Assembly: GCF_963678195.1 (NCBI RefSeq)
Contig: NZ_OY782759.1
Span: forward strand, 2,976,001-3,040,000
DNA length: 64,000 nt
Reading direction: 5' to 3'
From: an uncultured Hyphomonas sp.
Lineage (GTDB): Bacteria; Pseudomonadota; Alphaproteobacteria; Caulobacterales; Hyphomonadaceae
Position 1 is the stretch's first letter. Each line of letters begins with the position of its first letter. Positions 46,353 through 60,639 of the stretch are shown here, piece after piece. The position numbers were made by a program, and so were the translations under genes. The notes under the pieces were generated by a model, which saw nothing but the letters and a program-made list of their open reading frames with translations, did not search any database and was not told where the DNA came from.

Positions 46353-46406
46353 CCCGTGCCTCCCTTTTCATCTGTTTGCGGCATCACTCTATGCCCACCG
46401 CATGGA

Positions 46407-46445
46407 CCTGTCATCCCGGGGCCGCGCAGCGGAACCCGGGACCTT
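46407..46445 (+). repeat. Left inverted arm of the GIY-YIG element
   Basis: 39 bp, starting CCTGTCATCCCGG and ending CCCGGGACCTT. It folds into a hairpin and matches the right arm (46843-46881) in reverse with one difference. Confidence 0.85.
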
Positions 46446-46495
46446 CTGCCCCATGACGCAATGACAGGTGCAAGCTGAAATCCTAGTCTCCGGCC

Positions 46496-46789
46496 ATGGA
46501 ATCCTACTGGGTCTATATTCTGGCGTCGAAAAAGGGTGGCGCGATCTATGTCGGTGTCACCAGCGACCTGCTGGGCCGCGTCTGGCAGCACCGTCAGGGC
46601 ACCTATGGCGGGCACACAAAGAAGTATCACATCCGGCGCCTGGTCTGGTTTGAGGAATTCCCCAATCCGGAAGACGCAATCGCCTTCGAGAAGAAACTCA
46701 AACGCTGGCGCAGGGCCTGGAAAGACGAACTGATTGTCCGGGAGAACCCGGAATGGCTGGATCTTTACGACCAGCTTGTGAGGGAGTGA
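46496..46789 (+). CDS. GIY-YIG nuclease, short UvrC/URI-type
   Basis: 97-residue single-domain GIY-YIG protein. Family residues are Y7 in 'YWVYILAS', Y18-V-G20, R28 in 'DLLGRVWQH', H32 and E65 in 'AIAFEKKLKRW'. The Arg and Glu are the expected catalytic pair. The product should nick DNA; its target is not known. It lies alone between two inverted hairpin arms, with AT-richer DNA behind the stop. The same terminal sequence also occurs at 55884-55989, without a nuclease, so the enzyme may act on the hairpin in trans. Confidence 0.9.
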   Translation: MESYWVYILASKKGGAIYVGVTSDLLGRVWQHRQGTYGGHTKKYHIRRLVWFEEFPNPEDAIAFEKKLKRWRRAWKDELIVRENPEWLDLYDQLVRE

Positions 46790-46842
46790 CGCTACGGAAT
46801 GCTTTAAAGTATCAGGCGGCAGCGTTATTCGGAATCGCAGAC

Positions 46843-46881
46843 AAGGTCCCGGGTTCCGCTTCGCGGCCCCGGGATGACAGG
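46843..46881 (-). repeat. Right inverted arm of the GIY-YIG element
   Basis: 39 bp, ending GGCCCCGGGATGACAGG on the plus strand; reverse complement of the left arm except for one base (A for C). Confidence 0.85.
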
Positions 46882-46895
46882 TGATTGGAGCGCGT

Positions 46896-53876: not shown

Positions 53877-56009
53877 CTAGAATGTGCGGCTGATGCCGAT
53901 GGTGGCATTGACTGGTTCGCCAGGGAAGTAGCGCTGGTTGCCGAAGGACACATCGGCCCGGTCAGCGTAGCGCTCATCCGTCAGGTTGCGGATATTGATC
54001 CAGACCGTGTGCGTATCGGTCCAGGCCCAGGCCGCGCGAGCGCCGAGCACCGTATGGCCAGGATAGGTGTTCTGGTTGCCGGGGTCTGTGAAGTATTCGC
54101 CGACATGTTCGACGTTCAGAGACAGGGCGAGGCGGTCGGTCGCCTGCCAGTTCAGCCGCGCATTGGCGAGCCATTCCGGCGCGGTGTCGATCTCGTTTCC
54201 GTCGAGAATGCTGTTGGAGGCAGAGCCCGCAATGATGCGGTCGAAAGTGTAGGTCTGGTCCGACCATGACACATTGCCGGACAGGGACAACGTATCGGTG
54301 AGGTCATAGGCGGCGGAAACTTCGACGCCCTTATGCTCTGTCGAACCGTCGGTGACGTTCAGGCCGTTGGAATCGCGGAAGAAGAAATGCTCCTTGTCCA
54401 TCCAGTAGGCGGCGACATCGAAAACGAGGCGCCCATCAAGGGCTGCGCCGCGCGCACCGAGCTCGACACTGTCCAGCGTCTCCGTGTCGATCTGCCCCAC
54501 AACCTGCAGGCTCTGCAGGCGGTAAAGGTCCGACACCTGCGGGGCCCGGGCGCCGCGGGCATAGTTCGCATAGAGATCGACCGTGTCGGAGACCGACCAG
54601 ACCGCGCCGAGCTTCGGCGTCACGAACTCGTAGGAATCTGACCGGTCGGCGGGCACATTGAATCGGCCATTGATGCCGGGGGGCGCTTTGGTCGTGTAGT
54701 CGTAGTCATGGCTTTCGCCGCGCAGGCCCGCGAGAATGCGGAATGTGTCGGACACCGACCATTCCAGTTCGGTCCACAGCGCCGCGACGGTCGTGTCGAC
54801 ATCATAGTCGTAGTGGACGCCCTGCGGGAAACGCGTGTCGCCGGGGAAGAAGCCGAACGGGTCTGGCTGGATTTCGCGGAGGTAGCCGCTCGCAGCGTCG
54901 AGGTCTGTGCCGACGCGCCAGGTGAGCTGCTGGGACACGGGCTGCTCATAGCGCACCATGACGCCGCCGCCCGTGTGGCCGTTCTTTTCCACGCCGCCAT
55001 TCGGCAGGAAGTGCTGCGCAAAGATCATCGCCTGCGAATGGGCGTAGGGCATCAGGACCAGCGTGCCATCGAACAGGGGCCGCTCAAGACGCGCGCCGAG
55101 GCGGGCGGACCAGGCATTGCGGTAGGCTTCGGGATTCGGATTCGACTTTGCGATGTCCTCGTCCTTATAGGCATCGGCACCGACGATATAGCCGCCCGTT
55201 TCCTGCTCCAGATTCTGGCCTGACAGCCAGACCGTCGCGTCCCAGAGGCCCGGATTGAACTTGCCGACGACGGAGAGCTTCTGCTGGTTGACGTCTGTGT
55301 TGTCACGCCATCCGGTGTCTTTCTGAAGGGACAGGTTCACCAGCCAGTGCTGGCCCTCGTCCAGCTTCATATCTGTGCGCCAGCGGCCAAGCGTGCCATA
55401 GGAGGCCCGAAACTCGCTGCCCTCGCCCGGCTCAGGCAGGATGACGTTGATCAGTCCGTGCACGGCATTGGATCCGTACTTCGCACTGCCCGGTCCGCGC
55501 ACGACTTCGATGGCGTCGGCGATCTCGTGGTGCGGCTCGATCAGGGAATTGACGTTGCCGAAGGCAGGGGAGCGGGTGGGGACACCATTCTCAAGGATCA
55601 GGAAACTGCCCTGCCCGGCCCCGCCGGTCAGCACTGGCGAGCGGATGGCGATCAGATGCTCCTGCCCGGAATTCATCTGCACGTTCACGCCGGGCAGCTG
55701 GTTCAGGATTTCAGCCGGATGGTCTGCTGCGGTGGCATCGATTTCGGCGGCATCGAGTGCAGAGTAACTTCCCGGATCTGTGGAGGCGCGGTCGCCCCAA
55801 ACTTCGATCGGTGAGAGCATTTCATGCGGCGTGGCATCTTCATCTGCCTGTTGTGCCTGCACCGGCAGCCCGCCCAACAGACTTGTCATCCCAGCCGCAG
55901 CACAGAGCACGGAGAGCCGGGCCCCGGTGGCCACAAGCGAAAGTCTCTGATGGGCACCGGATAAACGCGTCGCGTTTTCCGGGATGACACGATCCGGACC
56001 AGTATTCAT
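53877..56009 (-). CDS. TonB-dependent outer membrane receptor
   Basis: 710-residue TonB-dependent receptor. After a long signal region, 'SPIEVWGDRASTDPGSY' begins the plug (about residues 65-200), with 'LNQLPGVNVQMNSGQEHLIAIRSP' and 'IEVVRGPGSAKYGSNAVHGLINV'. The beta-barrel follows and ends in 'GISRTF', with aromatic terminal Phe as required for BAM insertion. The ligand is unknown. GGGAGG stands eight bases before the start. Residues 7-42, including the hydrophobic core of the signal peptide, are encoded by a REPIN-like repeat (55884-55989). Next to it lies a nucleoside transporter. Confidence 0.92.
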   Translation of the reverse strand: MNTGPDRVIPENATRLSGAHQRLSLVATGARLSVLCAAAGMTSLLGGLPVQAQQADEDATPHEMLSPIEVWGDRASTDPGSYSALDAAEIDATAADHPAEILNQLPGVNVQMNSGQEHLIAIRSPVLTGGAGQGSFLILENGVPTRSPAFGNVNSLIEPHHEIADAIEVVRGPGSAKYGSNAVHGLINVILPEPGEGSEFRASYGTLGRWRTDMKLDEGQHWLVNLSLQKDTGWRDNTDVNQQKLSVVGKFNPGLWDATVWLSGQNLEQETGGYIVGADAYKDEDIAKSNPNPEAYRNAWSARLGARLERPLFDGTLVLMPYAHSQAMIFAQHFLPNGGVEKNGHTGGGVMVRYEQPVSQQLTWRVGTDLDAASGYLREIQPDPFGFFPGDTRFPQGVHYDYDVDTTVAALWTELEWSVSDTFRILAGLRGESHDYDYTTKAPPGINGRFNVPADRSDSYEFVTPKLGAVWSVSDTVDLYANYARGARAPQVSDLYRLQSLQVVGQIDTETLDSVELGARGAALDGRLVFDVAAYWMDKEHFFFRDSNGLNVTDGSTEHKGVEVSAAYDLTDTLSLSGNVSWSDQTYTFDRIIAGSASNSILDGNEIDTAPEWLANARLNWQATDRLALSLNVEHVGEYFTDPGNQNTYPGHTVLGARAAWAWTDTHTVWINIRNLTDERYADRADVSFGNQRYFPGEPVNATIGISRTF
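55884..55989 (-). repeat. REPIN-like repeat inside the TonB-receptor gene
   Basis: 106 bp bounded by perfect 9-bp ends TGTCATCCC (55884-55892) and GGGATGACA (55981-55989). Next to one end is a hairpin CCGGA..ACGCG/CGCGT..TCCGG. The end sequence is that of the GIY-YIG element arms. The repeat is wholly inside the coding region and contributes residues 7-42 of the receptor. Confidence 0.75.
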
Positions 56010-60545: not shown

Positions 60546-60557
60546 CTCCCATTCTTC

Positions 60558-60639
60558 GTCATCCCGGAATTTGCGTAGCAAATATCCGGGACCCAGTGTG
60601 CAGGCGCCGTGCCCTGCGCTTCGCTTCGGCCGGGGTGAC
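60558..60639. repeat. Degenerate REPIN-like repeat
   Basis: Begins GTCATCCCGGA and ends CCGGGGTGAC, the latter with one change from GGGATGAC. Its first half is a hairpin, CCCGGA..TTTGC/GCAAA..TCCGGG. The first half has the same plan as an arm of the GIY-YIG element (GTCATCCCGG...CCGGGACC), although the stem sequence differs. Confidence 0.65.

Follow-up and report, generated by a model that had tools for sequence, protein, structure and literature searches.

A small gene for a GIY-YIG nuclease lies in this genome between two inverted copies of a hairpin-forming repeat, and the question raised by the locus is whether the nuclease is the partner enzyme of the repeat. In REPIN/RAYT systems, REPs with a GTAG tag are accompanied by a Y1 tyrosine transposase (RAYT), which is thought to maintain and spread them. 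The original prediction put a GIY-YIG nuclease in the place of RAYT as the partner of a REPIN-like hairpin, and such a pairing is supported here by the flanks of related genes, by the match between protein clades and hairpin types, and by the copy number of the repeats. Our best explanation is a widespread system of two parts: namely, a small chromosomal gene for a GIY-YIG nuclease and its own family of CGTC/TGTC-tagged REPs, which occur as single copies, as inverted dimers (REPIN-like), and at the ends of the gene. The GIY-YIG protein would then be the cognate enzyme of these REPs, an analogue of RAYT with another chemistry that maintains and spreads the repeat, and we put the probability of this reading at about two in three.

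The cassette and its nuclease

The window, namely the whole stretch of 64,000 nucleotides that was analysed, spans positions 2,976,001-3,040,000 of a single contig with a length of 3.67 Mb and contains the following features.

46406..46882, no strand assigned: whole cassette, hairpin-gene-hairpin, 477 bp
46406..46445, + strand: left arm, hairpin TGTCATCCCGGG-GCCGCGCAGCGG-AACCCGGGACC, tag outward
46496..46789, + strand: GIY-YIG nuclease gene including the stop codon, 97 aa, clade C1, hairpin class A
46843..46882, - strand: right arm, the left arm inverted, tag outward
55884..55989, no strand assigned: two REPs of the arm family forming a pair, degenerate in its left half, no nuclease gene between
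60557..60639, no strand assigned: CGTCATCCCGGAATTTGCGTAGCAAATATCCGGGACC hairpin with a degenerate inverted partner

The arms had been described as inverted repeats of 39 bp that match at 38/39 positions and can form hairpins; they are found to be 40 nt each and complementary at 39/40 positions (98%) with a spacing of 397 nt, and each of them is a hairpin with a TGTC tag facing outward and a GACC tail. A 4HBT thioesterase gene is one neighbour of the cassette, and the other is presumably an acyl-CoA dehydrogenase-like gene. A small gene might come to lie between two intergenic hairpins by coincidence in a REP-rich genome, or the hairpins might be ordinary terminators; indeed, REPs are mostly intergenic, and many genes have hairpins nearby. 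No T-run was seen by eye beside the window arms, however, which argues against such a reading.

Between the arms, only a 97-residue GIY-YIG gene had been noted, and the protein encoded by the open reading frame at 46496-46789 indeed matches the GIY-YIG domain of Pfam with an E-value of 1.8e-17. The catalytic residues of GIY-YIG enzymes, which we take to be two Tyr, an Arg, and a Glu, correspond here to Y7, Y18, R28, and E65, all of which are invariant in an alignment of 40 rows; the catalytic Arg and Glu noted beforehand are hence present. The AlphaFold2 model of the protein has a pLDDT of 91.1, and the closest PDB structure in a Foldseek search was a UPF0213 protein (1zg2, E 5e-5), while those of SLX1 and UvrC were matched at E 6e-3 and weaker. 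The small GIY-YIG proteins of UPF0213 (1zg2 and 1ywl) are also similar in size to the window protein. By its domain, its modelled fold, and its conserved residues, the window protein is considered to be a GIY-YIG nuclease, for which cleavage of DNA is predicted; several annotated records name its relatives merely “GIY-YIG nuclease family protein”.

Among nine pairs of closely related genes, furthermore, eight gave a dN/dS of 0.03-0.13 and the ninth was saturated, indicating purifying selection. Genes of clade C1 number 0-5 per genome in 105 genomes of the host family (E below 1e-20), and matches to this clade were found in 31 of 72,556 plasmid records (E 1e-12), some of which are chromosome-sized, and in none of 50,697 phage records (E 1e-8), by which phage-borne transfer of the gene was discarded. 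According to the annotation of the matches listed, the hosts of relatives include proteobacteria, Nitrospirae, Chloroflexi, Bacteroidetes, Patescibacteria, and others. The distribution of the nuclease is wide and mainly chromosomal.

These data bear on two alternatives. GIY-YIG enzymes are classic homing nucleases, and the gene itself might be the mobile part: REP dimers would be cut and the gene inserted between their hairpins or next to them, the REPs being landing sites multiplied by something else. The window gene indeed occupies the place of a REPIN spacer; nonetheless, the small number of C1 genes in each genome, their absence from the phage records and scarcity in the plasmid records, and the purifying selection in the pairs tested argue against homing, which we regard as unlikely. 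Alternatively, a host nuclease might resolve the cruciforms or hairpins of REPs and be kept nearby to stabilize the genome, with no part in moving or spreading the repeats. Purifying selection and a wide, mainly chromosomal distribution would be consistent with such policing, and SLX1, a nuclease for branched DNA, is among the fold neighbours. A housekeeping resolvase, however, need not sit enclosed by its own substrate, and we consider policing very unlikely.

The hairpin repeats of this genome

When the arm was searched for elsewhere in the genome as a check of the prediction, the exact arm was found here only, whereas its hairpin family proved to be repeated and to enclose a second GIY-YIG gene. 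The 9-mer TGTCATCCC had 56 exact matches in the genome, part of which are lone 9-mers without a hairpin, versus none for the reversed control; within the window only, and with up to one mismatch, 18 matches versus 16 expected represent no excess. In the window, TGTCATCCC recurs at 55884 and in inverted orientation at 55981, and CGTCATCCC is found at 60557. Both places had been pointed out in the prediction. The arm ends do recur at 55884-55989, but the left half of this pair is degenerate, and the pair itself lies within apparent coding sequence, where its in-frame translation would supply the N-terminal part of the product of a minus-strand gene; the recurrence reported in degenerate form near 60558-60639 was confirmed, with CGTCATCCC starting at 60557 and an inverted partner that is degenerate. 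The pair at 55884-55989 is present in the genomes G075, G040, and G055 and absent in G056, G060, and G049, the N-terminal coding stretch being variable.

Copies of the hairpin in the genome are either single or inverted dimers of 102-104 bp; they have the form TGTC-ATCCCGG..hairpin..CCGGGACC, and the stem of the window family consists of 13 pairs, includes one bulge, and is closed by a loop of 3 nt. The loci of this genome that were read contain 34 full-hairpin matches with distinct flanks, among which one palindromic hairpin is counted on both strands, and 18 distinct versions of the hairpin. A covariation test was made on the 12 versions of equal length, the window arms being of another length and thus outside the count. 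In these 12 versions, the outer stem is constant and the inner stem is altered by compensating pairs: 98.7% of 156 cells are paired (12-54% in slid controls), and 18 cells are changed on both sides versus 6.9 in shuffles. The pairs with a double change and the further pair types were not above the shuffles, 134/500 and 370/500 of which, respectively, were as high.

Among the loci of this genome that were read, the inner stem of the window arms (GGCCGCG type) occurs in this pair only, other copies having different inner stems within the same outer frame. Also, the inner stems with the most copies (7 and 5) belong to the arms of neither class A gene. The window gene's own version of the hairpin is unamplified in these loci, and this counts against the reading of the nuclease as the cognate enzyme.

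Of five matches to PF01541 in the genome, that at 841,753, in a frame of 633 aa, is probably uvrC. The arms around the GIY-YIG gene at 931 kb have the more frequent frame of 37 nt, and their exact hairpin was read in one further copy, in a dimer at 2,250,751; the stop codon of this second class A gene (L004) lies within the downstream REP arm. A dimer of another hairpin, CCATGGATACCTGC..GCAGGTATCTGCGG, stands on each side of the gene at 1,301 kb; for the gene at 265 kb, a third hairpin type was found, on the downstream side only. Genes of classes A, B-like, and C coexist in this one genome. No Y1 transposase (PF01797) was matched in this genome, while the control was positive in 5 of the 14 named genomes, and RAYT was ruled out as the driver here on account of this absence.

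A comparison of empty and filled sites had also been proposed, and close relatives proved to have an empty site. In the genomes G055 and G056, the thioesterase protein is 99-100% identical and the DNA on either side of the place is 93-95% identical, and the cassette is absent from the intergenic stretch; it is present at the same place in G040, the place being filled in 1 of the 18 relatives read. As judged by eye, about 50 bp of the ancestral intergenic spacer is replaced at the filled sites, and the event hence does not look like a clean insertion. No target duplication was seen by eye in the one comparison of a filled with an empty site, and a clean insertion point was obtained from relatives neither for the cassette nor for the pair at 55884. 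Presence and absence of a cassette at one place among relatives would be consistent with homing as well.

Hairpin types and copy numbers among relatives

A search of genome contigs, with one genome per species, gave at least 590 matching stretches, 578 of them confirmed as relatives; the 80 most similar of these were retained. Among these best 80, an inverted flank similarity score of 18 or higher was obtained at 51 of 78 loci, versus 9.7% after flanks were exchanged between loci; namely, the arms within one locus resemble each other more than do the arms of exchanged loci. We then used a detector for outward-facing GTCA[T/C]-tagged hairpins (CGTC/TGTC type) on both sides of the gene. Two-sided hairpins were detected at 44 of the 73 loci with enough flank among the same best 80 relatives but at only 1 of 263 arbitrary windows and none of 74 neighbouring ORFs of at least 120 aa. 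In the host family of the window, 17 of 76 clade C1 loci were two-sided, a count that is low partly because many loci carry other hairpin types. In a later set, for which the detector was unchanged, 14/27 loci were two-sided and 24/27 had at least one hairpin (0/51 for windows); one locus of this set that is not two-sided (L254) has the same sequence as L105, giving 14 of 26 new loci, which are new as loci but not as a clade because the set was picked by similarity to an alignment mostly from the first set. Relatives without arms, which the prediction had named as counter-evidence, do exist, since 18 of 93 family loci have no hairpin class and 12 of the 26 new loci are not two-sided; nonetheless, arms are far commoner at these genes than at control genes. 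In one relative with well-matched arms (L065, 2501-2779), an internal stop codon was noticed.

The detector found no two-sided hairpins at the 17 loci of another GIY-YIG clade (C2). This clade was nonetheless dropped as a negative control, given that it has a hairpin of its own: its flanks hold CATCCTTCGAC..CTCAGGATGAG, or a sequence close to it, in inverted copies, and the inverted flank score was 18 or higher at 15/17 loci, beside an exchanged-flank null of 6.8% that was derived from C1 loci. Neighbouring genes were therefore taken as the controls. Hairpin partners accordingly occur in two or more GIY-YIG clades. At the loci L207-L223, we also noticed the second GIY-YIG clade (with YYVGSHRG and KGWSRAKKEA) together with CCTTCGAC..CTCAGGAT-type hairpins, several frames stopping inside or just ahead of the hairpin.

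The 93 loci of the host family (76 of clade C1 and 17 of C2) were further compared in terms of hairpin class; 70 were assigned to four classes, 18 to none, and 5 were tied. On a protein tree with few columns and many unresolved forks, in which near-copies inflate clustering, the four classes require 4 changes (minimum 3, shuffled mean 38.5, and none of 200 shuffles as low; per class, 1 for B, 2 for C, 2 for R2, and 3 for A), and host genus requires 17 on the same tree. Because more than one class is present in genomes that hold several of the genes, this genome among them, the match is not explained by shared host history. As far as these sequences tell, hairpin type follows the protein clade, not the host genus, in the host family.

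A coincidental placement between hairpins or terminators is contradicted by the flank counts (44/73 relatives versus 0/74 neighbour genes), by the better match of same-locus than of exchanged-locus arms, by the later set, and by the congruence of hairpin class with the protein tree, and we give it almost no credence. A gene that homes or polices, on the other hand, would likewise be flanked and clade-matched. Clade-specific targets of a homing enzyme would yield clade-specific hairpins, and the gene lies between two complete dimers at L060, L003, and L325, as homing would have it; a clade-by-clade match to hairpin type, however, is not required of a policing resolvase.

The copy number of the repeat was also to follow the presence of the gene if the prediction holds, and the two were related in both the family and the phylum samples, with exceptions. 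Among the 105 genomes of the family sample, in which the C1 gene was called at E below 1e-20 and the class A hairpin pattern was counted, the median was 11 hairpins in the 61 genomes with a C1 gene versus 2 in the 44 without (p 1e-4); when kinship was considered at the level of genus, none of 5000 within-genus permutations reached the observed difference (91 genomes with completeness of at least 90%). Exceptions include three hairpin-rich genomes without the gene at this threshold (G086, G092, and G042 with 31, 20, and 19 copies, respectively) and several gene-bearing genomes with zero class A hairpins. In a regression with genus terms (91 genomes), class A hairpins track C1 (p 1e-5) but not C2 (p 0.19), and the C2-type hairpin, the second repeat (ATCCTTCGAC..), goes with C1 (p 5e-4) as well as with C2 (p 0.0015). 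As the second repeat tracks both clades, the dissociation is one-sided; a full double dissociation of the two repeats and the two clades was obtained in part only.

In the phylum sample of 397 genomes, the pattern GTCATYCCNGCG..GCNGGRATCC was found in 49/110 genomes with the gene versus 33/287 without (odds ratio 6.2, p 4e-12 in a test that ignores the species tree), and the mean was 17.5 copies with the gene versus 1.5 without. The one pattern searched was absent from 61 of the 110 gene-bearing genomes, and the largest exception, G141, has 152 copies without the gene at threshold; since the phylum scan scored at most 12 first-look candidates per genome, some absences of the gene may be misses. 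Five gene-bearing genomes have at least 99 copies, and in the four whose loci were read (99-372 copies; L227, L230, L233, and L237), hairpins matching the counted pattern stand on either side of the gene. That REPs are far fewer in genomes without the gene is not predicted by homing alone. The pairing of GIY-YIG genes with hairpins, its clade specificity, and its link with copy number are thus well supported at the level of sequence comparison.

Known repeat systems and a possible role of the nuclease

CGTC-tagged REPs were defined by Di Nocera et al. (2013; PMC3733652) as repeats that are mostly inverted dimers and occur predominantly in alphaproteobacteria and also in several phyla. In the part of that text available to us, no transposase gene was found flanked by CGTC-tagged REPs, the maintaining enzyme was left open, and GIY-YIG is unmentioned. 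These REPs have a CGTC/TGTC tag, a stem-loop, a short CCA-like tail, and an arrangement as inverted dimers, as here; indeed, the window repeats possess the CGTC/TGTC tag, the stem-loop, and a short unpaired tail, and their repetition is often as inverted dimers. Unlike the published families, with stems of 8-9 bp and loops of 4-5 nt (PMC3733652, as far as available), the window family has 13 pairs and a 3-nt loop, and many relatives are shorter and near the published values. The superfamily is also characterized in the same part of the paper by a stem whose first two positions are a complementary AT; in the window family, the T pairs with A and the A before it faces C in the majority of copies, and AT..AT is found in many relatives.

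Neisseria, S. meliloti, N. aromaticivorans, and A. lipoferum are named in the available part of PMC3733652, and three of the 31 plasmid-collection records with a C1 gene were picked for reading because of these names. In Neisseria, S. meliloti, and N. aromaticivorans, a GIY-YIG gene is present with hairpins on both sides; the nearest downstream tag in S. meliloti points toward the gene, and the arms in N. aromaticivorans have CGTCG rather than CGTCAT. A. lipoferum is also among the C1 matches in the plasmid collection. A literature search, with preprints and most subscription papers outside its scope, found no paper pairing GIY-YIG with REPs among the papers listed; in the accessible part of a report on Moraxella catarrhalis (PMC9465073), RayT and a GIY-YIG gene are among the same clade-specific genes, without a stated link.

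REPIN/RAYT systems share with the present one a chromosomal enzyme gene in few copies with its cognate REP on its flanks, dimers in inverted arrangement at other places, and a clade-specific pairing, and the repeat number here tracks the gene, with exceptions; they differ in having a Y1/HUH transposase and a GTAG tag, in place of which a GIY-YIG protein and a CGTC/TGTC tag are found here. MITEs are non-autonomous copies that share their ends with a parent IS, and the ends of a gene-bearing copy are similarly shared here, but there is no transposase, no target duplication was seen, and the ends are hairpins.

SLX1 and UvrC, relatives in the GIY-YIG fold, act on structured or damaged DNA. If the nuclease is the cognate enzyme of the REPs, we infer that the hairpin is recognized, cleaved, and mobilized by it. 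The protein would recognize its cognate hairpin in extruded or in single-stranded form and would nick or cut at the foot of the hairpin, in line with the action of SLX1 and UvrC on structured or damaged DNA; repair or replication might next copy or re-insert the dimer, and the nuclease would thereby sustain the repeat population in trans, the role ascribed to RAYT in the case of GTAG REPs.

More broadly, we are inclined to think that the enzymes missing for CGTC REPs, and for at least one further class (CCTTCGAC..CTCAGGAT), are small GIY-YIG nucleases. They would represent a second, independent partnership of a REP and an enzyme, with a structure-specific nuclease instead of HUH chemistry. Such a partnership would be widespread among bacterial phyla, and the mosaic repeats of Neisseria might belong to it as well. 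If so, a clade-matched nuclease would answer which enzyme maintains CGTC REPs, the question left open in the available part of PMC3733652; also, an enzyme other than a transposase would join the movers of small bacterial repeats, and a large, generically annotated GIY-YIG family would gain a function.

Other repeats were also noticed around these REPs. At four loci (L017, L031, L039, and L055), REP partners are about 180-240 bp apart with other palindromes, like CTCCCCCGCAAGCGGTGGAGG, between them, which suggests nesting of repeat families. Furthermore, a multicopy ORF of about 141 aa (e.g., L037 622-1044 on the + strand, and near 474, 487, 925, and 1150 kb in this genome, G000) is present in at least five copies in this genome and in more in relatives; while no significant Pfam match was obtained for the two copies scanned, each of the three copies whose borders were read is bounded by a class A REPIN and, at its opposite end, by a class C hairpin.
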